Origin: Loxodes magnus
Lineage: Eukaryota > Ciliophora > Karyorelictea > Loxodida > Loxodidae
Assembly: GCA_946699065.1 (NCBI GenBank)
Contig: CAMPDV010000090.1
Span: 682,001-746,000 of the forward strand
Direction of reading: 5' to 3'
DNA: 64,000 bases
Below, one piece after another: positions 1 through 64,000 of this stretch. Both the position numbers and the translations under genes were made by a program. Every line of letters begins with the position of its first letter. Positions within the stretch are counted from its first letter, which is position 1. The notes under the pieces are model-generated. The model had not been told where the DNA came from. It did no database searches and worked only from the letters and a program-made list of their open reading frames with translations.

Positions 1-110
1 CAGTAACAAACATTCTTGTCAGTATGAAACATTTTTTTAAAGAGCTGCGCACCAGCGAGAGTGCTACGCGCTCTATAATCAAATTTATTTATTTATTATT
101 ATTTATTATT
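1..110 (+). repeat. 3' end of a dispersed repeat, cut by the window edge
   Basis: This stretch is nearly identical to 27,592-27,695. It holds the last two units of a TATCAGTA-type tandem repeat, then a GC-rich hairpin at about 41-76 (AGAGC pairs with GCTCT and GCG with CGC), then an AT tail. A third version of the hairpin lies reversed at about 5,623-5,658. The element body lies to the left of the window. What it encodes, if anything, is unknown. Confidence 0.6.
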
Positions 111-547
111 ATTATTGGGTAATTATTTATTTTAGTTTTATTATTAATATTCAAATATTATCATAAATTCAGCGCTTTTAATATATAAAAATATTATTAG
201 CCTACTTAAGATTTAATCTCATATTATTATTTTTCATACTATAATTTGTAAAAGCACACTGTTATAAAAAATAATATAAAAGGATAATATAATCTATTAT
301 GCGATAAAAAATAGTATATTATTGAAAGTTTTAAAAAGTTTAAATTAATATATATTTAATTTATAAAAATAAGTTTAATTAAAAATCTACCTCATAATGT
401 AAATTTTATTTATAACTTAAAAAAATTAAATTTAAATCGTAAATTTCTATTAATTAAAAAATTTTAATTTGATGAAATATTAATAGCTTAGTAGTTTTTT
501 CTTATGACAAATTTTAATATAAAAATTTTAATTTGAAGACAATTTTT
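111..547. other. AT-rich spacer
   Basis: Nothing recognisable. This is the 3' flank of the minus-strand kelch gene that ends at 548. Confidence 0.5.
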
Positions 548-1498
548 TCAAGTCTCATTTGAAGAAAATGCTTTAATCCACAATCCCTTTTTTATCTCAT
601 AAATAAAAAGATCGCAAATGGATTTAAACTGATATACAAAGCTTGATTTATAAAGAGGATTTGATATCAAACAATAATTATCTCCTTCAAAAGCATTTCC
701 GTGCTTATAGCATTTTTCTTTTACTATATCAAATATTTAAGTCTCCAAAAAATGTCTCCAGTTGTTATAAACTAAAATAGATTGTTAACTTGGCAAATCA
801 GATGACATAGTAGTAACATTTGCAGGTAAATTTTCGCTTATTTCTTCTCATTGGTTGTCTTTTATTTGAAATCTTCTTATTTTATTAAGATATCCATGCT
901 AAGTATGAAGTCCTCCAAAAACATAGACGTAAGGCATTTTTATATTTGCTCCAAATCCTCATACACTTTAATCATTTTGGAACATATCTTAAATTTATAT
1001 TGTATTTTATCATTATTTTAGGTTAAGCATTTCACACTTATTTGTATTAACTCCACTAAGAAAAAACATTTATACTTTGTTAAAAGCAACTCCATGCATT
1101 CCTCTTTAAAGCTTCATTTAACTTTCTTCACATCTTTATATCTTGTAAAAGGTCAGTCTATTTGATTACATTCCTCCAGAAATTATTAAATTATTTTCAT
1201 TTATTTATGAAACTCGTGTATGATTTGAACTAAGAGGTACTAATTGTTTTTCACTTTTATATACTCCTTATTGTTTTATGTCATATTCATATAAGACACA
1301 AGAATTATAAAAGAACGCTTTATAAACTTTGATATTATTGTAAACGAAATTTGGACAGATTTCGTACTTTATATTTCCTAATCCTATTTTTTAGAAGCTA
1401 TAATTTCAAATTTTATAGTTCTATCTAAGAATTTTCCTCATAAAAATGATCTTTACTACATTTAGCTGTTTATTGAATTTTAAAACCTCTTAATCCAT
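548..1498 (-). CDS. kelch-repeat protein, family A copy 1 (intact)
   Basis: Intact 316-residue protein when TAA/TAG are read as Gln and TGA as Trp; the length is an exact multiple of three. It opens MDQEVLKFNKQLN, followed by a family-specific N-terminal region (KIGLGNIKYEICPN, about residues 44-57). Kelch-type blades follow: NENNLIISGG near 120, and PYVYVFGG with a downstream IRRFQIKDNQWEE where the W is TGA. The C-terminal part has ILVYNNW and FDIVKEKCY. Termination is at TGA right after NET, a position shared by sister copies at 7,699, 48,050 and 60,843. Kelch domains form beta-propellers for protein binding; no catalytic domain, signal peptide or membrane segment is visible. The role is unknown, and it may be a scaffold or adaptor. 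No lesion was found, so this copy could be functional. Confidence 0.85.
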
Positions 1499-2689
1499 TT
1501 TTATAGATTAAGACAAGTATTAAAAAAGCAAAAAAAGTAATTGAATATCTGTAAACTTAATTAATTTGTAAATTTGTATACTTTCTTGCTTAAAATAAGA
1601 ATTATTATAAATATAACTATAAATATAAGTTTTAAACAAAACAAATTAAATATGAAATTATTATTTCATAAGTAAAAGAATACTATTTCTCTGAATGATA
1701 AATATTAAATTAATCAAATTTTTATCTTTATTTTAATTATTAATTCAATTATTATTTTATCGCTATATCTTAAATTTATTACTCTCTGTTATAAATTCAA
1801 TAATTAAACTATTCAATTAAATTTATCATTATAGAGAAACAGAATGGTTTAAGTTATAAAATACCTTTTAAATAAAAAATTTCCATTACATTATTTTATT
1901 TAATCTTAATATTTACTCTGCATTAAATAATAAAGATTAGTATGTACAAATTTATGTCATTAACATAAGAATGATATTTAAATTAGTAAACTTTATCTCT
2001 AAAGTTACAATTATAAGAAAATTTAATTATAATTTCAATAAAATCTTTTAAGAAATATTCATTTAAAAGATTAAAAAATAAAAATAGAGTATAGTATCGT
2101 ATAATTAATCAACGTTTTAAAAATTAAATATTATTATTATTTAATTCTTTAATTTAATCAAATTATATTCAAATATTTAATTTCATTTATAACCTTAATT
2201 ATTATATTTTAGATAGAAAAAGTATAAAGCTTTAATAGTATCTATATAAAATTTATTTTTATTAAAATAATACAAATATTAATTCTTTTATAATAAATTT
2301 TAGTATAGCTAAAGTAATTTTTATTGTCTATGTTCATCATTATTTAATCTTTATAAAATTATATAGTTATTTTAAAAATTATATCTTTATAAGTTTTATT
2401 ATAGTTTTTTATTAAATTAACTAATTCATAATAAAATATTTTGCTAAAAATGTTTTAATATAAATCTTCTACTTTAATTAAAATGCTTCATTTTATTTAA
2501 GTTTAAAACTTAATACTTCATTTCTCATTTTGTTTCATCTCTTCTTCTACACTATATCTTCGCTTATCAAATTTTTTTCTTCCTTTACCTCTAATTATTT
2601 TTATTTTATTATTTTAAGTTTTAATATATTGTTAGAAAGTTAGTACATTCTATTAAAAATAAAAAATATTAAGATTAAGATAAAATATT
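1499..2689. other. AT-rich spacer containing an inverted duplicated segment
   Basis: No gene was seen. About 1,850-2,500 matches the reverse complement of about 56,815-57,500, so this flank was copied along with a kelch locus. Confidence 0.6.
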
Positions 2690-3440
2690 TGGTTGGCTTA
2701 TGAGCTCAGTTTATGAATTTCAAAAATAATTTTATTTGCAATAGGTATCAAGATGCAACTCAAATCTATGCAGAATAATTACCAAATGATTATTAATCTT
2801 TTCCCCTGATATTATAATAGGAATTTAACTTAAATCCATTTTCTGCCAAACATTTGCTTAAAATTTTTGTTGGCTCTTCTTCAAGCATCTTCAGTACATT
2901 GTTATTTTCAATATCTTTTTATTAATATTTTTCCTTAAGGCGTAATAAATAAACTATTGAGTCATTATCATTATTTCATGCTTTCGACTTCTTGTTTTCG
3001 AAAGAATTTTCGATAGTTCTTTTCAAAATACTCAGACATATAACAAAACAAGCGTTATTGTATTATTTTTGGCTAAAATTTGATGATTGGTTCGATCTTT
3101 GGTTCAACATCCATAGAATCATTCTGAAACAAATTCTCAAAAACAGGCCTTCTGTTGATTCTATAAATTAGTATAAATTCTGCTCAGTTTGCTCTATTCG
3201 TATGTTTGTAGCTTGCATCTGAGGTCCATCGCTTATCTCTTTTTTAAATATTCATTTTCTTATTTGATTAAGGACATGCTAGAGATAAGATATGAAATTT
3301 ACCCTTAAAACTCTTATAGCTGTTCTGACAAATTTTGATTTCCTGTTGCATTATTTTAAGCTCCTTTAAATTAATTTCTAATAGCTTTTAGATTGAATGA
3401 TTTCCTTAAATTTTAGACTTTTTGTGATAGACTTTCCATT
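2690..3440 (-). pseudogene. decayed Gag-like zinc-knuckle element
   Basis: The minus strand shows the Gag-family layout: a coiled-coil-like stretch, then a linker with NDSMDVEPK (compare PMEIE in sister copies), then a ruined knuckle reading CYMSEYFEKNY. In that remnant only the first Cys of the C-x2-C-x4-H-x4-C pattern survives, and the His and the last Cys are Tyr. A frameshift separates the coiled coil from the linker. It sits just beyond the 3' end of the kelch copy starting at 4,777. Confidence 0.5.
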
Positions 3441-3689
3441 TTTCAATAAAATAATAATTTTTAATTTTAATTTTTAATTTTTAAATTTAATGTTAATTTT
3501 TTGAATCAAGTCTTTATATAAGAAAATATTTTGGACCATACTACTTTTTTGATCTAATAACTAAACAGATTACAAGTGTGATTAAACTGATAAGCAAAAC
3601 CTTAGTAACAAAGAGGATTTGCTACTAAACAACAGTCATTCCCTTCAAAAGCATTTCCATGCTGATAGCATTTTTCTTTTACTATATCA

Positions 3690-3706
3690 AATATTTAAGT
3701 TTCTAA
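3690..3706 (+). repeat. 17-bp target-site duplication, left copy
   Basis: AATATTTAAGTTTCTAA, repeated exactly at 4,012-4,028 on the other side of the SINE. The sequence belongs to the kelch gene, so it marks the insertion. Confidence 0.9.
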
Positions 3707-4011
3707 TAATTAAAAAGATGGTGGGAGCTGAGATTGACCTTCTGAATCATATTTTCTGGTTTTATGGCTAGGAACAAGTTCCTTTCCTGTCGCTGAGAAA
3801 GTCCCTGGTCATAATCAACCTTTGCAAGGGAACGCCTTCCTCTTGATTATCCACTCCTGATAGGGAGCTTGAAGCCTGGCTGCCCATAGCGATGGAGCTC
3901 CCTGGTAGCTGCTTTTCGAAAGTAACAGGATATCCCCGTTATCCCATGAAGGGAGTGTTGGGGTCGTTAAACTGCAAGAAGTTGCAGTCCAAAACTCTTT
4001 AAGTTGAAATT
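3707..4011 (+). mobile_element. SINE-like retroposon inserted in a kelch gene
   Basis: A 305-bp block near 50% GC in surroundings near 20% GC. A second copy lies on the minus strand at about 18,979-19,296, and the two share a long near-identical core (for example GGAACAAGTTCC and TCGCTGAGAAAGTCCC). The 5' end resembles a pol III A box (TGGTGGGAGCTGAG here, TGGCGAGAGCTGAG in the sister); no convincing B box was found. The right end, TCCAAAACTCTTTAAGTTG, resembles the 3' end of the LINE copies in this window. That suggests mobilisation in trans by that LINE. No coding capacity. Confidence 0.8.
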
Positions 4012-4028
4012 AATATTTAAGTTTCTAA
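4012..4028 (+). repeat. 17-bp target-site duplication, right copy
   Basis: Exact repeat of 3,690-3,706. Confidence 0.9.
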
Positions 4029-4937
4029 AAATTTATTCCAGTTATTATAAACTAGTATAGATTGTTTACTTGGTAAATTAGAAGTCATAGTAGTAGATTT
4101 AGCAGGTAAATATGCATTTATTTCTTCTCATTGGTTGTCTTTTATTTGAAATCTTCTTATTATATTAAGATATTTTTGCTAAGAGTGATTTCCTTCAAAA
4201 ACGAACACATAAGGTAGATTTATATTTACTCCAAAACCTCATAACTTTTGTTCATTTAGAAACATATCTTAAATTTAAACAGTCTTTTATCTTTGATTAA
4301 AATTAAGCATTTCACATGAATTTGAAAATAATCCACTAAGAAAAAATATTTATTCTTAGTTAAAAGCAACTCCATGTTATCCCCTTTCAAATTACATTTA
4401 ACTTTCTTTACATTTCTCTAAATTATAAAAGGTCAGTCTCTTCGATTAATCTCCACCAGAAATTATCAAATTGTTTTCATTTACCTGCAATACTCGTGTA
4501 TAATTTGAACTAAGAGCCTCTATTTGCTTTGGGGATTATTTTACTCTTTATTCTTTATATCATACTCATATAAGCAACTGGATGATCAGAGAAAAGTCTT
4601 ATAAACTTTGATATAATCATAAGTTAAATTTGGACAGATTTCATATTTAACATTTCCTAATCCTATCTTTTAGAAACTATAATTTCAGTTTTTATAGTTT
4701 TATCTAAGAGTTTTCCTAAGAAAAATGATTTTAACTACATTTAACTATTTACTGGATTTGAAAAGCTCTTGATTCATTTTTATAAATAATTATAAATATT
4801 AAGCAAACTAATGAAATATATTATTTTAATACTTCACTATTTATTTTATTTTTTACTAGCTTCTAATTTAAATACTTAGTTTATAATATATTAATAGTTT
4901 AATTACTTTATCTTTATCAATCTCTTTTTAATGGTAA

Positions 4938-5615
4938 CTTTTATGACTCAAAGTAATCCTAAACCTCTAGGAAGTGGTCAGGAAGCTCAGGAAGGAGAAC
5001 GAGAAGCTATCACAGCAGTTCCAGCATGGATTGCAAGATACTTTAGACCTCAGAATGGCTAACAAGGAAAGGGAGATTGATTCCCTATTGAAGTATCAGC
5101 AGGAGCAGTTTAACCAGACTAACTCTTAAGTGGAAAGGATACAAGATTAGAGTCAGTAGATAGAAAGCATCTTGTAAAGTCAGAGAAGCTAGCAGATCCC
5201 ATTAGAATAGGTAAATTCTGATAAGATGGAGATTGAGAAGAATCCTCAGCAAGAAAAAATAATTGAACCAAAACTCAAGATTTAGAAATTATGCTACTAC
5301 TGTAAAAGTAAATGACACCTTTGGAAGAATTGTAACGAATTTAGAAAGTCAGGGAGAAATCTAAGAAATAATTATAATAATAAATAAGGAAAAAGAAAAA
5401 TTAGATTTGGTGCAACGAAAAAGGTTCATTTTACAGATTTAAGAAGATCTTTGAACAAAAAGGACCAGAAGAATTAATTTGAATTAATAACGGAAGGAGA
5501 AAGAGAATTAGGAATACAAGACTCACGAGTGCTAGGGCTCGTAAAAAACTATATTTAAACTCCAAAACTTTTATTAAGTGGTTATCGGTTAGACACCACA
5601 GACACTTAAAAAAAA
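4938..5615 (+). pseudogene. 5'-truncated Gag-like protein with intact zinc knuckle
   Basis: In the frame of position 5,001 it encodes a coiled-coil region (KLRKENEKLSQQF, then a Gln-rich helix to about 5,200), a linker, and a zinc knuckle LCYYCKSKWHLWKNC. The ligand codons are Cys at 5,292 and 5,301, His at 5,316 and Cys at 5,331. The Trp before the His is TGA. A basic tail follows. No Met lies at the expected start and the left edge meets kelch upstream DNA at about 4,937, so the 5' end is missing. Nucleic-acid binding is inferred from the knuckle. Its right edge runs into a reversed copy of the terminal hairpin seen at positions 41-76. Confidence 0.65.
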
Positions 5616-5622
5616 CTAAGAT

Positions 5623-7420: not shown

Positions 7421-7715
7421 AAGAAGAAATAAAAATTTACAAGAACAATTGCTTAAAACTTTAAACTTGAATAGTATCCAGGTTTTTATTGACATTTTTT
7501 AAGTATGATAAAATCATGTTGATCCTTTATAAATAAGGACAGCGTTATTTTATTATTATTATAAAAGAGTTAAAAAGTATTTTTTTTTAAATAGAACATT
7601 AAAACTGAAATTATTATATTGATCATATTTATTTTAACTTAAAATAAGATTTAAAATAATATTTAAGGTTAATTTTAAATTTAATGTCAATTTTTCAATC
7701 AAGTTTCTTTTGAAG

Positions 7716-7732
7716 TAAATGCTAAGGACCAT
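7716..7732 (+). repeat. 17-bp target-site duplication, left copy
   Basis: TAAATGCTAAGGACCAT, repeated exactly at 8,693-8,709 around the Gag element. It is kelch coding sequence. Confidence 0.92.
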
Positions 7733-8692
7733 TAAATTAAATTAAAGTTATTCAGAGAAGGGATTGTTTTCTTAATAGTTTCCTACTCCCTATCCAACTG
7801 ATAGGTACTTGAACTCTTGGTGGTCTGTTCCTCCAGTCACTTTCAAGTCTTTGCAGTGGATTGCTCCGAATATTGCTTTTCTTCCTATAAATATTCCCAC
7901 TGCTAGTTGGGTAGAATTAGGTTAGTTCGTTTCAAATTTTCTTTTGTATCTCTTTTCTTTATCTGCATTTCCTTCAGAGATGGTTTATTCTTCCACAGAT
8001 AAAGCATTTTTTCTTAAAGTATCTTTCTTTAGTTAATTCAATTTGCTTAATCTAGACCTCTTCCAACTCCATTGGAACGGAGTGTGCTGTCTAGATCTTG
8101 ATATCATTCTTGATATTCTCCATTTTAAGGTTAATATTGTTTTCAATTTTCTCTAACTTGATGTGCATGTTCTCGTTCATATCATATAGCTATTCCAACT
8201 GCCTGTCGAATTCGTCAATTCGAATATTCATGGCAGCTTAGTTTTTGTTTCTAGGAGCATGGGTTTCCTCATCTTCTAAATGCTCTTGCTGTTCTTAAGC
8301 TAGTTCTTCAATCTGTTTTTCCAGGTCTTTATTTTTTCCTATTAATGCTAAGATAAGCTTAGCCATTTCCTCCTTCGTCATTCCTAAGATTTGTTCTTTA
8401 TTGAGATCTCCGAGGTCCATGTAGGGGTTGAATGTCCTAATCTAGGCCTGAAAGTTACTAATCTTTTGCTTCTTGGGAAGGTCCTCAGTCGATATTGTTG
8501 CATGCTAGTGTTTCTAGGGTTGTCTGGGGGGTGTTGTTTAGAGTTGCTCCTATATGGTTTAAGAAGAAGGTTTGGTTTTGGAAGATGACGTGTGGTGTTT
8601 AGAAATTTAGGTTTCCTGCTTCCTCTCTTCCTTTTTAGCTTAGAAAGAGGTGGTATAGAAGCCCTTTTTGAAACCTTCTACCATATTTTATA
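7733..8692 (-). mobile_element. Gag-only retroelement insertion, 960 bp
   Basis: Bounded by a perfect 17-bp target-site duplication and containing a single intact Gag-like ORF. The 5' end lies only 8 bp before the ATG. The 3' end is an AT-rich tail after the stop. There is no reverse transcriptase or endonuclease. It looks like a complete short retroposed unit mobilised by a LINE-type enzyme in trans. Confidence 0.85.
7752..8684 (-). CDS. intact Gag-like zinc-knuckle protein
   Basis: A 310-residue ORF, MVEGFKKGFYTTS at the start and TGA at 7,752-7,754. In order: a polar, low-complexity N-terminus (about 1-75); a conserved LPKKQKI motif and a helix FNPYMDLGDLNKEQILGM shared with other copies; a coiled coil (about 125-205); a PMELEE linker; a knuckle KCFICGRINHLWRKC (C-x2-C-x4-H-x4-C, all ligands present) near residue 230; and a basic tail with YPTSSGNIYRKK. 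The W in the knuckle is TGA, while the homologous codon is TGG in the copies at 48.6 and 5.3 kb. CCHC knuckles in retroelement Gag and ORF1 proteins bind RNA. No polymerase is encoded. It lies inside a kelch gene on the same strand. Confidence 0.85.
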
Positions 8693-8709
8693 TAAATGCT
8701 AAGGACCAT
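8693..8709 (+). repeat. 17-bp target-site duplication, right copy
   Basis: Exact repeat of 7,716-7,732. Confidence 0.92.
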
Positions 8710-9164
8710 ATTCCTTTTTTTTCGTATATAAAAAGATTACAAGAGTTATTAAACTGATAGACATAACTTTATTATTTATGAGAATTTGCTATTAGACAAT
8801 TTCCATTTCCTTGAAAACCATTTCCATGCAAATAACATTTTTCTTTTACTATATCAAAAATTTAAGTTTCTAAATTACTATTCCAGTTGTTATAAACTAA
8901 AAAAGATTGCTTACTTGGCATATCAGAAGACATTGTAGTATTCTTAGCAGGTAAAATTTCGCTTATTTCTTCTCATTATTTGATTTTTATTTGAAATCTT
9001 CTTATTTTATTCAGAAATAATTAAGATCTAAGTCCTCCAAAAACTCAGACATAAGGTAATTTTATTTCTGCTCCAAATCCTCATAATTTTTTGCCATCCT
9101 ATAATATATCTTGAATTTAGATTAAATTTTATCTTTATTTTAGATTTACCAGTTCACAAGAATT

Positions 9165-9720: not shown

Positions 9721-10683
9721 ATGGATTAAGAGGTTTTCAAATCCAGTAAATAACTAAATGTAGTTAGGATCGTTTTTCTTAGAAAAATTCTTAGATAAAA
9801 CTAAAAAAATTGAAATTATAGTTTCTAAAAAATAGGATTAGGAAACATAAAATACGAAATCTGTCCAAACTTTGCCTACGATCATATCAAGGTTTATAAA
9901 ACTTTCCTTTATAATTCCTGTATCTTATATGAGTATGATATAAAGCAAAAATTAATAGATAAATCCTCAAAAGAAATATAATCTCTTAGTTATAATTTTA
10001 CACGAGTATCACAATTAAATGAAAATAACTTGATAATTTCTGGTGGAGAGTAATCATAAAGGCTGACCTTTTATAACTTATAGAATTGTGAAGAAAGTTA
10101 AATGAAATTTGAAAGGGGACTACATGGAGTTGCTTTTGACTAAAATTAAATGTTTTTCCTTAGTGGGTTAAGGACAAATTCTTGTGAAGTTCTTAATCTT
10201 AAATAACGATAAAGTGTAACTTAAATTAAAGATATGTTCCAGTGTGATAATTATTTATGAGGATTTGGAGCTAATATAAAACCGCCTTATGTCTATGTTT
10301 TTGGAGGAGTTAATTCTTAAGAAAAATATCAAAATAAAATAAGAAAATTACAAGTAAAAAACAATAAATGAGAAAAGGTGAGTGAATTTTTGCCTGCAAA
10401 TGCTACTACTATGACTTCTGATTTACCAAATAAGCAATCTATTTTAGTTTATAATAACTGGAATAAATTTTTAGAAACTTAAATTTTTGATATAGTAAAA
10501 GAAAAATGTTATAAGCATGGAAATATTTTTGAAGGAAATGATTATTGCTTAGTAGCAAATCCTTATTAGTAATAAAGTTTCGTATATCAGTTTAATCATA
10601 TTTGTAATCTTTTTATTTACGAAATAAAAAAAGGAGCGTGGTTCAAATATTCGCCTTAAATGGGGAATAAAAAAATTAATTGA
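9721..10683 (+). CDS. kelch-repeat protein, family A copy 4 (intact)
   Basis: Intact 320-residue protein starting MDQEVFKSSKQLN. The N-terminal KIGLGNIKYEICPN block is followed by kelch-type segments NENNLIISGG, PPYVYVFGGVN with KWEKVSE, and ILVYNNWNKFLETQIFD. Several Trp positions are TGA, including NYLWGFGA and NNKWEK; nearly all TAA/TAG fall where sister copies have CAA/CAG or also TAA/TAG. The C-terminus differs from sisters after KKGAW: it reads FKYSPQMGNKKIN before TGA at 10,681-10,683, so it is four residues longer than the copy at 59,895. Kelch propellers usually mediate protein binding. The function here is unknown. Confidence 0.85.
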
Positions 10684-12135
10684 ATTTAAATTGAATTTAA
10701 AATTCTTGCTATTAAATATTTATTTCAGCTTAAATTTTACCTTTAATTAAGAATTAATTTTTCTTATTATAATTGAACTAAATTTAAACACTCTTTAGAT
10801 TCAAAATTTTTACGTCAGAAGAAATTTGATTAAAAAATTTATAATAAATTGAAATTAAAAATAATAATTATTTCAGCCTTTAATGAATTCAAAGATAACG
10901 AATAATTTAATAATTTTAATATTTTACACTTTCTTTACTTTGCAATTTTTCAATTAAAAAATATAGATTGATTTGTTAATTTCACTAATTAAAATTTAAA
11001 GAATATGCTTTATAAACTTTTTAGTAGGTAGAAGTTAATTAAATGATTCATTTAATTAAGTTTCAAATTTTTAATATAAAAAGTAAGTTAATAATTGAAA
11101 ATTTTAAGAAAAGTATTTTATCATTTCTATTTTTAATTTATTATTGCGTCAGATTTTTTAAAATAGTTTTTTTATGTAATTTAATATTAATATTGATTTG
11201 TAAAAAATATATTTTCTATAAATTTTATCTTTTAACTAAATTATTCCTTAAATGAAATAAAATTTTAAAAGTATTTATTATAATCACGATTTTTATATTA
11301 ATAGTTTTTTATTATTGATTATGTTAACATATTATTTTTTAAAGATTTAAAATAAATATTTTATTTTTTCAAGCTTGCTTTATTATTCTACTTCTGTTTT
11401 ATGGAGTATTTATTCACCTTATATTAATTAATTATACCTTTATTTAAATTTTAAAATATAGAAATTTTTTAATTTATTAATCAAATTTTTTATTTATCTA
11501 GTCCATTTTCTTTATGAGAATCAATTATGTATATTGATTATTTTTTAAATATACCTAGCGAAGAATTGATATCACTAAACTAAAATTAAAAATTAACCTA
11601 TTATTCAACAACTTACATGTTAGAACCCTTAACGAATTTTTTTAATTACTTAATTTAAACTAATTTTAATCCCTCTTTTTTGAGTTATTATAATAGATAA
11701 AACAAATTCGATCTTTGTATAAATATGTATAAGTATGTAAAAATGATAATATATCTTAATGTTACTATCTCTTAACTATTTCTCACAACTAAAAAAATTG
11801 CTTCTGTTCATTCAAAAATAATATAAGTAATCATTTAGAACTTTTCATATATATAATTTCATGATTAAAACTATTTATAATTTAGTATTAATTAAGGTAA
11901 AAAATGTTTATCGAAAATTTTTACATTTAATGTTAAATAAAAATTTATAAATTAATTTTTATTGAAAGGTTTATTCAAATAATTAAAAATAGTTCTGACT
12001 AAATTAAAAATTTTAAAAATTTTAATTTTAAATTAGTTGTAATTAACCAATTAATAAAATATCAATAATTTTTAATTTTAATTTAATTTAATATTTATTA
12101 ATTATATTAATGTGTAACTTTATTATTTTATCTTC
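10684..12135. other. AT-rich spacer
   Basis: Matches about 60,850-62,240. No conserved coding stretch was seen; the hydrophobic frames here reflect base composition. Confidence 0.55.
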
Positions 12136-41921: not shown

Positions 41922-41924
41922 CGA

Positions 41925-47108: not shown

Positions 47109-48052
47109 ATGGATCAAGAAATTTTCAAATCCAGTAAATAACTCAGTATAATTAAGATAATTTTTCTAAGAAAAAAACTTAGAGAAAACTAAAAAAATTT
47201 AAATTATAGTTTTTAAAAAATAGGATTAAGAAAGTTAATTACGAAATCTGTCCAAATTTTGCTTATAATTAAATCAAAACTTATAGAATTTTTATTAAAA
47301 ATTCTTGTGTTCCATATGGTATGACATTAAATAATAACAAGTAGAAAAATCCTTAAAGAAGTGGAAACTATTAGTTCAATTTATACGCGAGTATCAAAGA
47401 TAAATGAAAATGATTTAATAATTTCTGGAGAAAGAAAATCGAATAGATTAGCCTTTTACAATCTCAAGAAATATGAAAATAAGTAAAGGAAATTTTAAAG
47501 AGGAATGCACGGAGTCGCCTTTAATAAAGATTAAATTTTTTTTCTTAGTGGATGGAGATCAAATTCTTGTGAACTGGTAAATCTAAACTAAAGATAATAT
47601 TTAATCTAAATTCAAGATATATTATAGGATGGCAAAAAATTATGAGGATTTGGAGCAGAAATAAAATTACCTTATGTCTGAGTTTTTGGAGGACTTAACT
47701 CTTAATTATTTCTGAATAAAATAAGAAGATTTCAAATAAAAAACAACTAATGAGAAGTAATAAGCGAAATTTTGCCTGTTAAGAATACTACAATGTCTTC
47801 TGATATGCCAAGTAAGCAATCTCTTTTAGTTTATAACAACTGAAATAGTAATTTAGAAACTTAAATTTTTGATATAGTAAAGGAAAAATATTATTTGCAT
47901 GGAAATGCTTTTCAAGGAAATGGAAATTGTTTAATAGCAAATTCTCATAAATAATAAAGTTAGGTCTATCAGTTTAATAACTCTTGTAATCTTTTTATTT
48001 ACGAAATAAAAAAGGAGTGTGGTCCATAGCATTTACTTCAAAAGAAACTTGA
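47109..48052 (+). pseudogene. kelch family A copy 6
   Basis: Starts MDQEIFKSSKQLS and ends SIAFTSKET with TGA at 48,050-48,052. A one-base deletion in the KIGLGN-x-KYEICPN block shifts the frame, and the following 40 codons are scrambled. The C-terminal two-thirds are readable (KLWGFGAEIKLPYVWVFGGL) and nearly match the inverted copy at 7.7-9.2 kb. Confidence 0.75.
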
Positions 48053-48237
48053 TTGAAAAATTGACATTAAATTTAAAATTAACCTTAAATATTATTTTAA
48101 ATCTTATTTTAAGCTAAAATAACTATGATCATTATAATAATATCAGTTTTATTATTTTATTAAAATAAAAATCTTTTTAACTCTTTATAATAATAAAATA
48201 ACGCCATCATTATTTATAAAGCATCAACACGATTTTA

Positions 48238-49384
48238 TCATTATTTAAAAAATGTAATAAAAACTTGGATAATATTCAAGTTTAAAGTTTTAAGCAATTG
48301 TTCTTGCAAATTTTTATTTTTTCTTTTATAAGATTTAAACTTTAAATTATTAAAATAACTGTTCGCCTTCCGACTTAATTGAAATTTTAAATGTATAAAA
48401 TCTCCTTTCCTGCATTTCCGTTCCTTGACCTCTTTTTCCTGGACTTCTCTCTTTTTAATACTCTGAGTTAAAAAAAAAAATTTCCAGATTTTCCCATTTC
48501 CCGATGGGAAGAATTCCGTCACTCGCCATTTCAGTTGTTAATAGTTAATATTACTCCAAATATTCATTCTTATTCTTTTCTATTGGGGACATTTTCGCCA
48601 TAGATGTCAAGTGCTGTTGCAAATGTAACATCTTTTCCTTGATCTAGGAAATATCTTTTCTTGTTTCTCTATTTCCATTGGAATTCCTTAAGAGGGCTTC
48701 TACAGGTTTTCTTCTATTAATTTAAGTCTGGAATCTAATTTTACTCAGTTTTTCTCGTCTTGCTCTTGCATTACTCAAATATCATTCTCTAAATTTTAAA
48801 TTGACTCATAGACTCCGACTTTAGATCTTCGGTCTACCATATGGACTTCGTCATCATCTTCATGGTTTATCAGATCCTGACTTATTGTAAACATCTCTTC
48901 CTTCTGGGAGCTTAATTCCTCTTCGAATTTTTTTATGTTTCTAATAAGTAGATGAATCAGCTGTTTCATCTTTTCAGAGTTCATTTGTTCTATTTCAATG
49001 TTGTCTAAATCAAAGGTAATAGGATCTATATTAAATTATCGTACTTTACCTTCTTCGTTTATTTTTTATTTCTTCTTATTATTTTTATCGATTCAGTTGA
49101 GTGGTCTCTTTTTTCAGTTTTCAATGGAGGCGTTGAGAGATGTGTCAACTTTTTTGTTCTGAATTTTGCCTCAATTCCTGCTTGTCCTTTGATGGAAGAA
49201 GTCCGCTTTATTTTAATTTGTAGGATTTAGCATTTTTTATTAGTTCTTCTAATTTATTTTGTTGTTCTGGTTAATTTTATTAAGAAGAGCGTTAAGTTGA
49301 AGAAGACGTGGTGAGAATATTTGCTTCTGGTTTTCTCTCCTGTTCTGAGGAGGTGGTAAAAAAACCCTTCTTGAAGCCAGCCAT
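48238..49384 (-). pseudogene. Gag-like protein, near-intact with one frameshift
   Basis: Starts MAGFKKGFFTTSSEQERKPE. One frameshift occurs at an A6 run near 49,125 (after QNSEQKS). Then come DTSLNASIENWKKRPLNW, KVRQFNIDPITFDLDNIE, a coiled coil with IRNIKKFEEELSSQKEEMF, DDDEVHMVDRRSK, and a complete knuckle KRCYICNSTWHLWRKC with all four ligands. The W before the His is TGA, and the second W is TGG. A long basic tail (KREVQEKEVKERKCRKGD) reads out of the element into flanking DNA to TGA at 48,238. The insertion spans 48,339-49,393. The A-run shift could be a real lesion or an assembly error. Confidence 0.75.
48326..48338 (+). repeat. 13-bp target-site duplication, left copy
   Basis: TTATAAGATTTAA, repeated at 49,394-49,406. 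The uninterrupted site is visible near 7,415-7,427. Confidence 0.85.
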
Positions 49385-49409: not shown

Positions 49410-50930
49410 ATATTAATTCTCAAATATATATTTATTTATCTTATTCTTAATTTTTTTTTTTTACTTAGTACAATACTCAAACCACTTTTCTTTTTACCTC
49501 AATTTATTTTCTTGAGTCTTTAACTAAATTTACTTCATCTTGACATCATTTTCAGTTAAAGAAATCTTTTAATAGCGATTTGATTAGATTTTTTTAATAT
49601 TGCAACACTTCCTTTCAGGTTGGCCTATGAAGCATTTCCAAAGTTTCACTCTTGCATTACTTGGATATCTTTTGCCAAATAGGTATCCAAATACTCGAAC
49701 AATATATTTTAACTGAATTTACAACATAAAAAGTTTAAAAATTGACTTCTCCTAACCATTTCTTCATTTTTTTAATTTATCTAACTGAGTTGATCGACCT
49801 AAGCAAAAGATGAGATCTCTTTAAGAGAATCTTGCTTGAAAATATAATTTTTATACTTAAAAAAATATTTATTTTTGTTTTAAATTAAGAGAGTATATTT
49901 TAAAGTTTGTGAATAAGCAAAAAGAGCTGATTTTAATAGCACTTTCCTAAAATTATTAAAAAAATGAAAGCTAAATTATGTAAATTTTAAGCTATTATAA
50001 TTTATTGTTTACTAAGATAATAATCCTAATATTTATATAATTCTCTAATTTTTATATTAAATGCTATTATAATTAAAAGAAATTTTACCTTTGAAAAGCA
50101 TATTAATTTTTAGCATATTTTTAAATATTAAATTGAAATATTTATTATATTTTAGATATTTTACCCAAAACACTGTTATAAAATAATTTGACTAAAAGAA
50201 TTATAGAGCGCCTTAGCCTCATTTATACATTTGAAATAGTCTATTCTTATAATTAGAATTTGCTATTTTATTTTAAATGATTTGATTAATTTATTTATAG
50301 CAAGAAACCTTTGCTGAACGGAAGACATAGTTAGAGACAACAAGAACAGGTGGGTGGGAGAGGAGTAGAGACTTATAAACCTTTTTTTAATTTCACCGAC
50401 ATGAAGAGGTGAAAATCCTCGAAAATTGGCAAACTTAACTATTTTAATAATAATAATATATTTCTTTTAATAGTTAATATTTAAGAATCTTTATTTTTCC
50501 TTTATAAGAAATATTATCTATTTTTATAAAAAGTATAAATGAAGCATGTATTTAATCATTTACAAAGATTGATTATGAAGTGATTATATAAACTTTTTTA
50601 CTTTTATTATCTTATTTAGTTTAATATATGCTTAAATGATAATTATTAATTTTCAGTCTTTAAGAAAAACTTAGTTTTTGCCATACTTCTTACTCTGAAT
50701 GGAATATTATAAATATAATAATCAATTTTGCTTATTAGTTTAAGCAAAAAGAGATCATATGAGTAATAATAGAATATTCCATTATCATAAACTTCATCTA
50801 CTTATTTCTGATAATCATCAAATGCGTTATCTTCAAAAATTTTACTTCAGCTAGAAATATCTTCAAACTTAAAGGTATATTTAGTCAATTAGAAATATTG
50901 CAACCTTCATTTCTTAGTCTTTTTTTAATA
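49410..50930 (-). pseudogene. unknown protein, second degraded copy
   Basis: Inverted partner of 6,030-7,420. It shows YIVRVFGYLFGKRYPSNARV and KLWKCFIGQPERKCCN near 49,560-49,720, and GIFYYYSYDLFLLKLISKID near 50,730. A frameshift near 49,800 breaks a segment that is open in the partner. A Gag 3' fragment interrupts it at about 50,300-50,440. No family was recognised. Confidence 0.4.
50300..50440 (+). mobile_element. 3'-end fragment of a Gag-type element
   Basis: About 140 bp closely matching the reverse complement of 54,340-54,490, the 3' end of the element at 54.3-55.2 kb, and lacking all 5' sequence. It keeps the terminal GAGGTGAAAATCCTC hairpin. The other duplicated block (6.5 kb) has unrelated host sequence here. 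Confidence 0.7.
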
Positions 50931-51022
50931 ATATGAATTTTTAAATTAGTATATTTCTTTTGCTTACTAATAACTATACCATTTATTTATAAATTTAATT
51001 ATTATTAAATTTTAATATCTAT

Positions 51023-51055
51023 ATATGTGTAATTGAGTGTAATTTACTTAAATGC
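51023..51055 (+). promoter_or_regulatory. conserved upstream box of kelch family B
   Basis: ATATGTGTAATTGAGTGTAA then TTTACTTAAATGC, 30 bp before ATG 51,085. Confidence 0.45.
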
Positions 51056-51084
51056 TTATTATTTTCATAATTTTATTAAAATAC

Positions 51085-52023
51085 ATGTATTGGTAAGATA
51101 ACTAACTTATTAAGATTTTATTCCTAAGATAATTACTAAGAAAAGCTTAAAAATATAATGGAAATTAAACATTTGGTAAGTTTGGAAAAGGAGTTACTAA
51201 ATATGAGCTCTGTTCTAATTTTAAAGATTCTAGAAACTTCTCTCTAATTTCTACAATAAAAAAGAGATTAAGCAATAAAGTTACTTACTAAGTTCATAAT
51301 AATAAAGTCTAAAATGAAACTAAAAATGTTTCTACTCATGGTCTACCTTCACACATAGAACAATTTATAATGAAACTCTGCTAATTTCAGGTAGTAATAA
51401 TGAAGATGAAAGAAGATTTGTTATTCATAATTTAAATAATAAAACTTTGGAATTTTAAATGCAAGAAGGAAGATAATTTCATAGAACAAGATTCGATAAA
51501 TCAAGCTTAATTTTTATAATTTAAGGATAGCAATTTAAAAACTATTAATGAGTAAATTTTACTGGATGCTAAGTTTTTAATTTGAAAAATAATAATTTCA
51601 AGTATATAAATTCTATAAAATAACCTTTTATCTATTTTGGATGTGATTAAACAGCTTCTAAACTTTATGTCTTTGGAGGATTTTAATTTTCACCCTCTTA
51701 AGCCTTGAATAAAATTTAGATATAGGATAAAACTAAAAATTTAGGATAAAAAAGTGAAATTAATTAGATAAAAAGTTACTGCTTCAGCTATTTATATATC
51801 TGATAAAAGATAATTTTTTATATATAATAATGGTTACTACACACTTGGCACTTTAATGTTTGATTTTAAGAAAATTGTAAATTTAATTGAAAAATTTAAA
51901 GTAGAAAATATAAATTACACTTAACCAATTTTAAGCTTATATATTGTCTTTCAATTTGATAGAAATAGTGATTTATTTAGTTATGATTTAAGCAGCAAAG
52001 GATGGAGACAAGTTGAAGCTTGA
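51085..52023 (+). pseudogene. kelch family B copy 5
   Basis: Starts MYWQDNQLIKILFLRQLLRK and ends GWRQVEA with TGA TGA at 52,021-52,026. A one-base deletion after SHIEQ (near codon 100) and a second shift near the third blade (GQKSEI region) break the frame. The remaining sequence is typical family B. Confidence 0.75.
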
Positions 52024-52275
52024 TGAAGTAAAACTTATATTAATATTTTAATTCTCATTTAGACCTTTAAATATAGATTAAAATTTAAATCCTTTAGTAA
52101 AAATAAAATTTAATCAAAACTAGCTATGGATTTAACTTTTTCCTAATAGATTATAACTTAAATTAAGATCTTAAAATAAATATAAAATTATTATTTTATT
52201 TAATTAATGAAATTATCATTATTTACATATTTTTTTATTTGATTTAATTTAAATATTTATATTCATTTGTTTTCA

Positions 52276-53217
52276 TCAAACTTTAACTTGTCTCCATCCT
52301 TTGCTGTTCAGATCATAACTAAATAAATCACTATTTCTATAAAATTAAAAGACAATATTTCTACTTAAAACTGGTTGATTAGAATTAATGTTATCCACTT
52401 CAAATTTTTCATTTTATTTAACAACCTTTTTAAAATCAAATAATTAGGTATCAAGATTGTAATATCCATTGTTATAGATAAGAAATTAATTCGTTTTAGG
52501 AATATAAATAGCTGAAGTAGTAGCAATTTTATCTAATTAAATTTAACTTTTTTATCATATATCTTAATTTTTGTTATATATCTAAATGTAATTAAATGCT
52601 TAAGAAAGAGTAAATTAAAACCCTCCAAACACACAAAGCTAAGAAGCAGTTTAATCGCATCCAAAATAGCAAACGGGAATTTCTATAGAATTAATTTAAT
52701 TGAAGTTCTTAGTTCTCAAATTAAAAACTTCACATTCAGACAAATTTATTTACTGATTGCTTTTAAATTACTATCCTGATATTAGAAAAATTAAACCTGA
52801 TTTATCAAAATTAGTTCTATGAAATCTTCTTCCTACTTACATTTAAAATTCTAAATTTTTATTATTTAAGTTATGAATCACAAATCTTCTTTGATCTTCT
52901 ATATGGCCACCTGAAATTAGTAAAGTATTATTATAAATTTGTTCAATATACTATGTCAGGCCATCAGTAAAAACATTTATAGTTTCATTTTAGAATTTCT
53001 TATAACGAGTTTAGTAAGTAAATTTAGTGTTTAGATTCTATTTTATAGTTGAAATAAATTAGAAGTTTCTAGAATCTTTAAGATTAGAACAGAGTTCATA
53101 TTTAGTCACTCCTATTCCAAACTTTCCAAATATTTAGTTTCCATTATATTTGTGAGACTTTCTTAAAAGTTTTCTTAGGAATAAAATCTTAATAATTTAG
53201 TTATCTTACTAAGACAT
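52276..53217 (-). CDS. kelch-repeat protein, family B copy 6 (intact)
   Basis: Intact 313-residue protein, MSQQDNQIIKILFLRKLLRK to GWRQVKV, with tandem TGA TGA (first at 52,276-52,278). KFGIGVTKYELCSN is near residue 45. Kelch segments: TLLISGGHIEDQRRF; LCVFGGFQFTLSQAF with IYNKNQDIWQK; FLIYNNGYYNLDTQLFDFKK; NIVFQFYRNSDLFSYDLNSK. It lies tail-to-tail with copy 5, 252 bp apart. The 3' flank (52,060-52,275) matches that of copy 1 at 16.34-16.57 kb, and the upstream box is at 53,246-53,283. No lesion was found. Confidence 0.86.
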
Positions 53218-53245
53218 TTATTTTTATAAAATTATTTAATTCGTT

Positions 53246-53283
53246 AAGTATTTAAGTAAAATGCACACATTTACACGTATTTA
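53246..53283 (-). promoter_or_regulatory. conserved upstream box of kelch family B
   Basis: Minus-strand ACGTGTAAATGTGTGCATTT then TACTTAAATACTT, about 30 bp before the ATG at 53,217. Confidence 0.45.
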
Positions 53284-53689
53284 ATACGTTTAAATCTAAT
53301 TATAATTTTATTTATAAATAAATAATATAAATTATTAATAATTAATAGAAATGTATTTAATCGATAAAACATATCATTTCTCATTTAAGTGATAGAAGAT
53401 TATATTAAAAAACTTTATTAGAAAAAAATTGTAAATAGGAAATAAGAGTTACTGAATAATTAATCTAAATGATGATTCAATCTCTATAATCATTTATATT
53501 AATTTTTTAATTAGACAGGAAAGAATTATTCATATAATTTTCCTTTTTATAAATAAAATTTATTATAATAATAATAATATTTAATCAGAGCCTCAATATT
53601 TGAAATATTGAAACATAATTTCATAATTATTGATAAATAATCATGCAAATTATTTTAAATTATAAGAATCTACATTTTCAACTATGGTT

Positions 53690-54235
53690 CTTTTTCACCC
53701 TCATCTTGATAAGGACACGCTTTGCTCATTAAATCTATTTATGGGTTTCTTTTTAAAGGATCTATTTTTTTCTTTCTAGTCTTTAAGAATCTTTAATCTT
53801 TTTTAAAATAATTATTAATAAAATATTTTATGTACTTTTCTACTTTAATCATCTTATTTGTTTAATTATTGATTAATATAGTTTTAGTCATATAAAACTA
53901 GTATTCTACAATCTTTTCCAGCATTTATTTTGTGTTTATTAAAATTCTTAAAAACATCAATATAAAGATTAATCTGGAAAATGTGTTCAAATGTATCAAA
54001 TTCCTATCTACATAAACAAAGCTTGTTTAATTAAGTTTTGATATATCGCTAATTCAGTTTTTATTACAAATTATAATTATAAGTCCATAGTTTATAGATT
54101 TAAATAGCTTCCTGAATTATATATCTATTGTATTTAATGTATTTTATTAAAAGAAAAATTTTAATTACTTTCTATTTAATCAACAAATCTTTTTGCTGTT
54201 GAATTACGGTATTTCTTTTAAGACATTCTTAGAAA
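53690..54235 (-). pseudogene. LINE ORF2 C-terminal fragment
   Basis: The minus strand reads KYIKYNRYIIQEAIQIYKLW, TYNYN, then the zinc-motif remnant CLCRQEFDTFEHIFQIN (last Cys lost), then ILVLYDQNYINQQLNK. The second part is closer to the fragment at 31.5-32.6 kb than to the intact LINE. The upstream portion (STAKRFVDQIESN) is in another frame. Confidence 0.6.
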
Positions 54236-54298
54236 AAAAATGTATAGATTTAAATAATAAGATGCTTATTAAAACTCTTTGAAATCATAAATATCTTT

Positions 54299-54363: not shown

Positions 54364-55152
54364 TCATGCCGATCCCAGATTGCTCCGGGATTAAAAAAAA
54401 GGTTTATAGGTCTCTACTCCTCTCCCACCCATTTGTTCTTGTTGTCTCTAACTATGTCTTCAGCTCAGCAAAGGTTTCTTCCTATAAATATTTCCAAGCT
54501 AGTTCATGAATTGTCTCTCTCTAATTTTCCTTTGTTATAGTTGTCTCGTTTTCTTTTGCTACACTTGCTGCTTTCTCTATTTTCTCCAAAACTGGTTCTT
54601 AAAGTTTAGGAATTATTCACATCTTCTTCATAGATGTTTCTCTGAATTACAGTAGTAGCACTTTTTAACTACTTTGATTGACTTATCCTTCTTCTTCTTG
54701 TCAATTACCTCTATCAGCATTGGATCGCCTCTTTGCTCATTAAGTTTCATTTGCTGTTGCAGCTTCTCTTCTATTTCTCCAAGCTTGTTACCCAGCTCCG
54801 TCTGTTTCTATTGCTAATTTTAGGATTAGCAGTTCTGACTCTGTGATATGTTCCAAAATGCACTTAATTCCCTTTCTTAGGACATAAGTCTTGACTCGAT
54901 TTCCTCTTGCTTGTTCAGATTCTCCATTAGCCTGTCGTTGTCCTTCTTTAGTCTCTTAACCTCTTCCTGGAGGTTTAGTACAACTTGGATGAGCTGTTCC
55001 ATGCTCATCTGGCCAGAAGGATTAAATTCCGACACCTCCTGGTGTAAAGCAGATTTTGCCTGCTTTCTAGGCTTCTCTAGTGAAGTCGGTGTTTCCTTAT
55101 GCTTGCTTTTCTGAGTCTTCTTCTGTTCTTCTTGTTAAATTCCAGGTTTTTA
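54364..55152 (-). CDS. Gag-like zinc-knuckle protein, 5'-truncated insertion
   Basis: Open reading frame of about 262 codons in an 839-bp insertion (54,314-55,152) bounded by a perfect 15-bp duplication. It lacks a start Met: the first readable residues are KPGIQQEEQKKTQ, close to the N-terminal end of family C, so the 5' end was lost at insertion. Then ETPTSLEKPRKQAKS, a coiled coil (IQVVLNLQEEVKRLKKDND, RLMENLNKQEEIESRLMS), a second helix with GNKLGEIEEKLQQQMK, a lysine patch DKKKKDKSIK, and a full knuckle KCYYCNSEKHLWRRC (W is TGA). The basic Gln/Arg-rich tail has LGNIYRKK. Likely stop TGA is at 54,364-54,366. Without a promoter or Met it is probably silent. Confidence 0.75.
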
Positions 55153-57509: not shown

Positions 57510-57960
57510 AGGTTTAGTTAAATAATAATCTAAAAATATTATAAGAAGTTTTCAAAGACTTAATTGATAAATTTCAGAAATCTATATAGATTCTTTTGTA
57601 TGCCAAAATTGGAATATTGTTTAGAAGTAATACTTTATAGTGTATTATAAGGTGTATGTCAAACAATTATTAAAATTCATGTAATGTAGAAATAAATGCT
57701 AAGGAAATTTATAAAAATAGCTTAATGTTAATGTAACGAACTATTACAGATAGATTTGAATTGATCATAATTTGGATAGATGATAGCCCTCAAATATTTC
57801 AACTTCTACTATAAAAAATAGAAGCAATACAAGATTTAAAGCAACCTTGAAAATTAAAAATAAGATATATATTTTAAGAAACTATATGAACTTAGTAAAA
57901 AGAAAAACTGTCAATTTAGGAAATTTTTAATGAAAATTTTAAAATATTATTAAATATAAA
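57510..57960 (+). pseudogene. LINE ORF2 fragment
   Basis: Plus-strand relic of the post-RT region: EVFKDLIDKFQKS, then after a frameshift LYRFFCMPKLEYCLEVILYS and LLQIDLNWSQFGQMIALKYF. These match LCRLFTLPKAEYGGDLVPWS and CYIDLNWLPFKHIMAIKFF in the intact LINE. The divergence suggests an old insertion. Confidence 0.65.
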
Positions 57961-59894: not shown

Positions 59895-60845
59895 ATGGAT
59901 CAAGAGGTTTTCAAATCCAGTAAACAACTAAATATAGTTAAGATCGTTTTTCTTAGAAAAGTTCTTAGATAAAGCTAAAAAAATGGAAATTATAGTTTCT
60001 AAAAAATAGGATTAGGAAACATAAAGTACGAAATCTGTCCAAACTTTGCTTATGATTATATCAAAGTTTATAAAACTTTCCTTTATAATTCCTGTATCTT
60101 ATATGAGTATGATATAAAGCAAAAAGTAATAGATAAATCCTCAAAATAAATATAATCTCTTAGTTCAAATTATACTCGAGTATCACAATTAAATGAAAAT
60201 AATTTGATAATTTCAGGTGGATGTTCATTAAACAGATTAAGTTTTTACAACTTAAATAAATGTGAAGAAAGTTAAATGAAATTTTAAAGGGGATTACATG
60301 GAATTGCTTTTAACCAAAATTTTATGTTTTTTCTTAGTGGGTGAAGGACGAATTCTTGTGAAATGCTTAATCTTAAATAATGATAAAGTACAACTTAAAT
60401 TCAAGATATGTTCTAGTGCGATAATTATTTATGAGGATTTGGAGCTAATATAAAACTGCCATATGTCTATGCTTTTGGAGGAGTTAATTCTTAGTAAGAA
60501 TATCAAAATAAAATAAGAAGATTACAAGTAAAAAACAATCAATGAGAAGAGGTGAGTGAATGTTTGCCAGCAAAGGTTACTACTATGTCTTCTGAATTAC
60601 CGAGTAAATAATCTATTTTAGTTTATAATAACTGGAATCAATTTTTGAAAACTTAAATTTTTGATATAGTAAAAGAAAAATGCTATTAACATGGAAAAAT
60701 TTTTGAAGGAAATGATAGTTGCTTAGTAGCAAATCCTTATTAATAATAAAGTTTCGTATACCAGTTTAATCATATTTGTAATCTTTTTATTTACGAAATA
60801 AAAAAAGGAGTGTGGTCCATAGCATTTACTTCAAAAGAAACTTGA
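59895..60845 (+). CDS. kelch-repeat protein, family A copy 9 (intact)
   Basis: Intact 316-residue protein, MDQEVFKSSKQLN to SIAFTSKET, TGA at 60,843-60,845. The N-terminal KIGLGNIKYEICPN is followed by kelch-type segments NENNLIISGG, LPYVYAFGGVN with NNQWEEVSE (W is TGA), and ILVYNNWNQFLETQ-like sequence. Duplicate of the gene at 9,721; the two differ mainly at the C-terminus, where this copy keeps the common GVWSIAFTSKET end. No lesion was seen. Confidence 0.87.
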
Positions 60846-62240: not shown

Positions 62241-62242
62241 AC

Positions 62243-62324
62243 TGAAAATCGGCTGCTCTGATTGGGTTGAAAATCCCAGAAAATGAATAAGCTTATTTTG
62301 CATTTATTTTAGTTATATAATAAA
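62243..62324 (+). other. micro-inversion relative to the 12-kb copy
   Basis: Reverse complement of 12,140-12,219 within otherwise collinear duplicates; contains ATCGGCTGCTCTG. Confidence 0.75.
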
Positions 62325-62329
62325 TATAA

Positions 62330-63075
62330 TCAGGATCACTCAACTATCCATATAAAACTTTCTTTTTTTACAATTTATTTCTGGATTATTTGTTCTTTTT
62401 TTAGATAATTCCCTATTTGGCGCAAAGCATCTTTCTATATTAATGTAATTGCTTCTTTTCTAATCAATTTCTTTCTTCTCAGTAAACCCTTTATTTTTTA
62501 TAAATAACTAACATTTTTGATAGAAATGCTTTTCACTTATACAGAAGTAGCATTTCATCTTTGTTGCCTTGCGAATTTTTTTCAGATACTAAAGAATCTT
62601 GAATATTCTCTAATTTCATCTTGTTTTCTACTAATATTGAATTACTTCTTTAATCTATTTATTCAATTATGCTAAAATCTTTATTATTTTCCACTATTCT
62701 TTATTCTAGTCTAGTTCCTGATACTTTCTTTTATTAGATTTAAGTTTAACTACTTTAATCTTTGGATATTCTTTTAAAGGCGTTTAATTCTCTTCTGAAA
62801 CACGATTCTTGATTATATGCTTTTTTAGATGCTTAGGTTTTCCATTAGCGTTTTTTAATTCTATTTCAGCCTTTTAATTTCCTCCTGGAGGTTCCGCATC
62901 ATTTTGTCTAGCTATTCTCAGCTTATCTGCACTATCGTGGTGAATTCCGATAATTCTTGCTTTAATATAATTTGCCTATTTTCTAGGTTTTTCTTCAAAA
63001 GTAGGAGTTTCAATTGTATGAACAACCTTCTTGTCTGTTTTTTTCAAGTCTTAGATATTCCAGAATACCACTTAC
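62330..63075 (-). pseudogene. Gag-like element (family C), copy 2
   Basis: The minus strand contains SKTWKKTDKKVVHTIETP and FEEKPRKQAN, then in a second frame KMMRNLQEEIKRLKQNQK and LMENLSI. After an extra A in an A7 run comes a knuckle KCYFCISEKHFYQKC with all four ligands. So the metal site is intact while the frame is broken twice, the reverse of its partner at 12.2-12.9 kb. Confidence 0.65.
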
Positions 63076-63079
63076 TCCT

Positions 63080-63489
63080 ACTTTTTGGGAGCAAGAAATA
63101 CTTTTCGTATTCCTTTTATTTTTTAACTTATTTTTCTCTTTTTGATATTTTTTATTAAATAAATGAAAAATTAGATTAATAAAATATATTTAATTAATAA
63201 ATTGTCTATTTTGTATTAAAATAAAGTATATATTCCATTTCTATGAAGTTTATATTTAATTTAAACTTTTTAAAAATTAAGAAGGTTAAATATTTAAAAA
63301 CTAGGAATCGATCTATCAGAAACTCTCAGAAAAAAGAGTTAAAAATTCTTAGGACGTATGATAAACAAGATCCAAACCAATATGAAGTCTCTTTTATTTA
63401 ACATTAAACTTTCAATTTTTGATTAACCAAATAAAGGTGAAATCACGTAAATTAATTCATTCATTCCTTCATTTTTTTTAATTTTTTTA
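63080..63489. other. AT-rich spacer
   Basis: This part is not collinear with copy 1 of the duplication. Nothing recognised. Confidence 0.45.
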
Positions 63490-64000
63490 TTATTATATTT
63501 TGTATTATATTTGTTGCTTGGTTTAAACTTAAATTGCTGTTTCTTTTCTTCTTTTTGAGATTTAAGTTATCCATTTAGGGATTGGTACTTTCAATAGTTG
63601 GTGCAACCTTCTTTTATTAAATTTACTATTTCTATAGGCTGCTTTATAAAATCTTTATATAGTTTACATATTATTTGTTAACTGGAATTTATAAACATAA
63701 TTATATATTATTTATAGTTTTGAGGATAAGCCACAATCCTCAAGGATTTCCTCTCTATATTCTTAATACATCGTCTTTTTTGAACTACTTCTCTACTTCT
63801 TGAAATGACACTAATCAAGTTTCTAACTCCCAAAATAAAAACTTAATGAAAATAAGTATGATTATTTGCATTATTTTGATTTTTAGCTTATTATTCAAGA
63901 GCCATTCAAAGGATATTAAAAATTATCTCTTTGATTCTATGGTTTTGGATTAAAGTTCTTATTATCGATAACTCAAAATCAGTAATCTTAGTTCTCGAAT
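63490..64000 (-). pseudogene. protein-kinase-domain pseudogene, cut by window end
   Basis: Sister of 13,830-14,800. The minus strand reads KITDFELSIIRT (DFG has become DFE) and WMALEQQAK (APE has become ALE), then degraded C-lobe. The two copies have different lesions, so decay continued after duplication or each lost constraint separately. Confidence 0.55.

Follow-up and report, generated by a model that had tools for sequence, protein, structure and literature searches.

We found that the 64-kb stretch of contig CAMPDV010000090.1 analysed here (the window) carries two homologous families of kelch-repeat open reading frames (ORFs), A and B, together with a long interspersed nuclear element (LINE) ORF and five Gag/ORF1-like zinc knuckles, and that its genetic code is very probably NCBI table 27, in which TAA and TAG specify glutamine and TGA serves both as tryptophan and as the terminator. 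The window has a G+C content (GC) of 21% and is crowded with diverged repeats. Under the standard code, it contains no stop-to-stop frame of at least 150 codons, the longest being 125. With the alternative reading that we used (TAA/TAG as Gln, TGA as Trp), intact ORFs emerge for six kelch copies. Four of these belong to family A, namely A1 at 16574–17509 on the minus strand (311 codons followed by TGA at 16574–16576, with 28 in-frame TAA/TAG/TGA), A2 at 52276–53217 (−; 313 codons, then TGA TGA), A4 at 28476–29414 (+; 312 codons, then TGA TGA) and A5 at 43829–44764 (−; 311 codons, then TGA TAA); the other two, B1 at 59895–60845 (+) and B3 at 548–1498 (−), each have 316 codons followed by TGA. 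Four further copies contain frameshifting gaps, A3 (23406–24410, −), A6 (51085–52048, +), B4 (47094–48120, +) and B5 (33973–34957, +), while B2 (9721–10775, +) is open to codon 308 with a one-base gap at codon 309 and B6 (4012–4807, −) is truncated at its 3′ end. All kelch counts given below cover these 12 of the 19 matched places and exclude seven shorter fragments.

The two families are distant from each other, A1 showing 31% identity to the B copies. Across the six intact kelch ORFs, there are 106 TAA, 21 TAG and 14 TGA codons in frame, which amount to 141 of 1879 codons. A1 scores above the curated Pfam cut-offs for Kelch_1, Kelch_2, Kelch_4 and Kelch_6 alike, with Kelch_4 reaching 39.4 bits against a cut-off of 21.6 (E-value 5.9e-10 under table 27). 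When the fragments are included, the matched places number seven for family A and 12 for family B, lie in both orientations and are interspersed with LINE and Gag-like pieces.

The LINE ORF2 (37111–40276, +; 3′ limit provisional) combines an endonuclease (Exo_endo_phos_2) and a reverse transcriptase (RVT_1; E-value 7e-26 in Pfam) within a single ORF, and has 43 TAA, 11 TAG and eight TGA among its 1055 codons. Its best PDB match by sequence is the L1 ORF2p (7.8e-24). It thus shares with the LINE-1-like non-LTR retrotransposons the order of domains, endonuclease then reverse transcriptase in one ORF, but differs from them in being written in a reassigned code. Past about 40.28 kb, the ORF has two plausible frames, one of which runs to a doubled TGA TGA (40200–40500). 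Other LINE ORF2 fragments (31693–32487, 19813–20268, 53878–54279 and 57570–57815) display 34–44% protein identity to the intact ORF.

The zinc knuckles were recognized by the exact pattern CX2CX4HX4C; the window has five instances of it over its six frames, and 60 first-order Markov resamples average 0.02. Four of them feature an H-L-W triplet, whose tryptophan is TGG in the copies at 5292–5333 (+) and 48589–48630 (−) and TGA in those at 7965–8006 (−) and 54619–54660 (−), exactly as a preliminary description of this DNA had it; the fifth (62511–62552, −) has a tyrosine (TAT) at this position. The Gag-like pieces are mutually 22–40% identical over matches of at least 65 residues and are accordingly old relatives rather than recent copies. 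None of the five knuckles exceeds the zf-CCHC cut-off, the profile being seen in the 8.0-kb copy alone (14.1 bits against a cut-off of 20.8), and the label "Gag" is therefore a motif call.

With respect to the sense meaning of TAA and TAG, we masked the three stop codons of the LINE ORF as X and aligned it to a profile of 23 reverse-transcriptase homologues. TAA fits glutamine at 14.2 bits over 24 sites, the next being lysine at −0.1 bits, with glutamate not in the top four; in a control with sense codons having at least four sites, the procedure assigned 33 of 39 correctly when the alignment threshold was stricter and 31 of 44 when it was looser. The RVT_1 score of the LINE ORF is likewise highest with TAR (TAA or TAG) as glutamine (91.6 bits), followed by serine (83.8), glutamate (83.5), lysine (79.6), tyrosine (76.6) and leucine (75.3). 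Among the kelch copies, column 100, a glutamine in both families, is CAA in six of 11 copies, TAA in three, CAG in one and AAG in one, which bears out the earlier remark that conserved glutamines of the kelch genes swap between CAA/CAG and TAA. These fits and swaps support TAA and TAG being read as glutamine, more tentatively so for TAG.

The meaning of TGA draws on the kelch profile scores and the TGA/TGG swaps of the Gag-like pieces, which support its reading as tryptophan. Column 233, the canonical kelch tryptophan, carries TGA in 11 of the 12 copies and GGA in the other, in agreement with what had been said of conserved kelch tryptophans. Tryptophan is also the best of ten readings of TGA in both A1 (one TGA; Kelch_4 39.4 bits, next 35.2) and B1 (four TGA; Kelch_1 24.8 bits, next 21.5). 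The parallel statement that conserved LINE tryptophans are TGA turned out to be too strong: a TGA stands on a Trp-leading profile column of the LINE ORF at one position (37210), and none of its five TGG codons falls on such a column. Changing TGA from tryptophan in the LINE ORF lowers the RVT_1 score from 91.6 bits to 90.6 (arginine), 87.1 (glycine) or 85.7 (cysteine). Under the tryptophan reading, TGA accounts for 14 of the 22 Trp codons of the six intact kelch ORFs and for eight of the 13 in the LINE ORF, i.e., 22 of 35 together or about 0.75% of codons.

The kelch frames carry the imprint of selection at the protein level. Mismatches per codon position 1/2/3 are 0.194/0.157/0.244 in family A and 0.217/0.150/0.276 in family B, position 2 being the lowest in both. 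The pairwise ratio of nonsynonymous to synonymous substitution rates (dN/dS), computed in frame with table 27, ranges from 0.34 to 0.51 in family A (median 0.44) and from 0.31 to 0.44 in family B (median 0.37), and in the five other frames the medians are 0.58–1.19, with ranges extending from 0.53 up in A and from 0.46 up in B. Within each family, the in-frame range does not overlap with those of the other frames. These values include the broken copies and speak to the history of the families rather than the present state of each copy.

Several features of the gene ends indicate that TGA is also the terminator, the evidence coming from these two related kelch families. The end column is TGA in all ten scorable copies (six of A and four of B) and TAA or TAG in none, B2 and B6 being unscorable. 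A shared terminal TGA had been foreseen, and so had its frequent doubling, which holds for family A (four of six) but not for family B (zero of four); more generally, the codon after the end TGA in the ten copies is TGA in four (all from A), TAA in three (A1, A5 and B5), TTG in two and AAA in one. Enrichment of UGA right after stops has been reported in ciliates with UAR as glutamine (PMC6879139). Over their whole length, the six intact kelch ORFs have a GC of 22–26%; it is 27–30% in the last 60 bases and falls to 8–13% in the 60 bases past the TGA. Amino-acid identity in family A is 0.65 over the last ten codons ahead of the stop and 0.52 over the ten that begin with it, followed by 0.21 in the next ten and then 0.35; in family B, it is 0.75 at codons 298–307 and 0.48 at codons 308–317, followed by 0.39 and 0.33, and as the family B stop is codon 317, the drop there starts before the stop.

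Codon choice in these ORFs depends on the distance from the end. Over the final 25 codons of all six intact kelch ORFs (150 codons), a single in-frame TAA/TAG/TGA is present where 12.2 would be expected, in line with the depletion of UGA and UAA near stops reported for Loxodes magnus (PMC11441545). Column 323, a conserved tryptophan 6–10 codons ahead of the stop, has TGG in ten of its 11 copies and TAG in the remaining one, and the kelch tryptophan located 93–100 codons before the stop is TGA wherever the tryptophan is kept. Column 323 is the sole one always ending in G among the 18 Lys/Glu/Gln/Trp columns conserved in both families, G-ending codons numbering 146 of 886 overall, and all-G columns also exist inside single families (two of 21 in A, the column 323 tryptophan among them, and one of 30 in B). 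Column 306, a conserved glutamine 23–27 codons ahead of the stop, has CAA or CAG in ten of the 11 copies with glutamine; the far glutamine columns 132, 182, 217 and 270 show TAA in 36 of 38 cases, and the far column 100 does so in just three of ten glutamine copies. The shared end column, the fall in GC, the loss of conservation and the scarcity of in-frame stops near the end together support TGA ending these genes. Thus, the proposal of the preliminary description that all three stop codons are sense codons with TGA doubling as the terminator is upheld by the Pfam scores, the masked hidden Markov model (HMM), dN/dS by frame and swaps between paralogues on the one hand, and by the shared TGA end on the other.

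A number of results pull the other way. Of the 12 aligned kelch copies, six have a shifted frame, a truncation or a gap at the end, implying that not every copy is a gene, and since the copies are related by descent, the counts across them are patterns and not independent events. The 23 homologues behind the masked profile were retrieved with a query read with Gln/Trp, even though they were scored with the stops masked. In that profile, TAG is only narrowly glutamine (4.4 bits against 3.7 for lysine over six sites) and TGA is undecided (tyrosine 2.6, glutamine −0.3 and tryptophan −0.4 bits over seven sites). For RVT_1, TGA as arginine lies just 1.0 bit below tryptophan. Exo_endo_phos_2 favours TAR as glutamate (46.1 against 43.9 bits for glutamine) and Exo_endo_phos favours tyrosine (35.8 against 35.0). 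Tryptophan gives B1 its lowest score for one WD40 profile, which is itself far below the cut-off. Substitution scoring within families placed glycine ahead of tryptophan for TGA; this scoring misassigned masked controls, including TGG, and was not used for TGA. Finally, the GC of the ORFs (22–27%) is below the 33.5% published for the coding sequence of L. magnus.

The broken copies also invite the explanation that the families are decayed repeats, i.e., pseudogenes in A+T-biased DNA under the standard code, in which C-to-T decay or a process like repeat-induced point mutation (RIP) converted CAA, CAG and TGG to TAA, TAG and TGA. The GC of 15–26% across the 4-kb blocks of the window is in keeping with such a process, as are the one- to two-base gaps seen in many pairs of the whole-repeat comparison, in which mismatches are spread evenly over the three phases among the pairs listed. 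However, decay does not account for six frames of 311–316 codons free of frameshifts, for the kelch tryptophan being the same TGA in 11 of 12 copies from such divergent families, for dN/dS of 0.31–0.51 in the coding frame only with second-position mismatches lowest in both families, or for the Pfam and masked HMM fits that choose glutamine for TAA. Moreover, RIP would leave a depletion of CpA and TpG, which is not observed ((CpA+TpG)/(ApC+GpT) of 1.17), the TpA/ApT value of 0.99 not deciding the matter. Hence, on the intact frames, the kelch match, the near-stop patterns and dN/dS, we dropped decay and RIP as an explanation of the coding core, for which we find them hardly credible.

More closely related to our preferred reading is table 28 of the Condylostoma type, which would imply a heterotrich-like host in which TAA and TAG may terminate too; the sense readings are identical, the two codes differing only in the end codons that they allow, and TAA does directly follow the TGA in A1, A5 and B5. 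Both systems have all three stops as sense codons and set termination by closeness to the 3′ end, but Condylostoma magnum ends genes at UAA and UAG as well, and here none of the ten scorable kelch ends does so, all being TGA in what is a small sample. Together with the use of UGA as the karyorelict stop (PMC6935857; PMC4967479) and the LINE-rich DNA, which suits Loxodes, this makes table 28 unlikely and favours the table 27 logic that had been put forward initially. A further option is another eukaryote with all stops reassigned, either Amoebophrya ex Karlodinium veneficum, which reads all three stops contextually (PMC12005148) and shares most of the code reading proposed here, or a Blastocrithidia-like lineage. 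Blastocrithidia is reported to read TAR as glutamate, a change that costs RVT_1 8.1 bits, although Exo_endo_phos_2 gains 2.2; the tests made here leave room for Amoebophrya, and the LINE type and the extreme A+T content point to ciliates by resemblance only. We regard either of these hosts as quite improbable.

Under table 27, the window is probably nuclear DNA of a karyorelict ciliate, the host being less certain than the code. It resembles the table 27 karyorelicts (Parduczia sp. and L. magnus) in the three codon meanings, the avoidance of TGA and TAA before the stop and the A+T-rich sequence past it; it differs in the GC of its ORFs, which is under the L. magnus value, and in the frequency of TGA, about 0.75% of codons compared with the 0.12% reported for Parduczia (PMC4967479). 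Mechanistically, TAA and TAG would be decoded as glutamine by their own tRNAs, as published work on relatives suggests, and a TGA well inside the message would by default be decoded as tryptophan by a tRNA. Close to the 3′ end, eRF1 is predicted to outcompete the tRNA at TGA because the poly(A) tail, potentially with PABP, is near. This model of default tRNA decoding and eRF1 action near the poly(A) tail was put forward for Condylostoma and Parduczia (PMC4967479) and is extended here by analogy.

The code itself is rare and was already published by 2016 (PMC4967479); the new elements are the loci and a view, at the level of paralogues, of how codons are chosen near the stop. Codes in which no codon is set aside for termination call into question the notion of one codon with one meaning, and the paralogues constitute a natural experiment, with the near-stop tryptophan kept as TGG and the far kelch tryptophan as TGA in both families. 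The rule that TGA is a stop only near the end becomes testable gene by gene, with concrete sites for the width of the termination zone. A bolder proposition, which we advance tentatively and consider somewhat doubtful, is that the ambiguous TGA is now the usual tryptophan codon in a table 27 organism (22 of 35, and per codon about six times the published Parduczia value). If true, selection would hold tryptophan as TGG only within about ten codons of the stop and the boundary between sense and stop could be read directly from paralogues.

As for the affinities of the kelch proteins, they resemble the kelch-repeat beta-propellers in that A1 scores above the cut-offs of kelch profiles, and in an AlphaFold model that is mostly beta-strand, the model being poor and its fold matches counting for little. 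They differ in that no BTB domain was reported among the five translated kelch copies scanned and no relative was recovered at E ≤ 0.001 among the scored candidates (597 in one search, 2420 in another) from 5.8 billion proteins. Contig collections also yielded no relative, a weak negative since four of the six peptide patterns contain Gln/Trp and would miss relatives written with TAA/TGA, and such records were possibly omitted. A narrow literature search (Loxodes with kelch) led to work on Tetrahymena radial spokes and returned no earlier report of this family. Elsewhere in the window, Pfam six-frame scans of 11.0–16.0, 18.0–23.0, 29.4–34.0 and 54.9–59.8 kb gave nothing above the curated cut-offs (outside these four stretches, Pfam was applied to chosen frames at most), Rfam gave no matches in the window and ARAGORN in its bacterial setting detected no tRNA in it.

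Finally, in four A copies, the homology to A2 extends about 10–350 bases upstream and 120–240 bases downstream of the coding sequence. Four family B fragments (8693–9164, 41921–42234, 3463–3711 and 7573–7731) retain the 3′ end and lack the 5′ part, a configuration often seen in retrocopies, and the family B fragment at 8.7–9.2 kb shares 96% identity with a portion of B4. Copies A6 and A2 face each other with their 3′ ends and form an imperfect 3-kb palindrome (50614–53675) that is 74% identical. An 816-base inverted repeat (40657–41472 and 45119–45934), whose arms are 97% complementary and 3.6 kb apart, adjoins kelch copies and represents a recent duplication.

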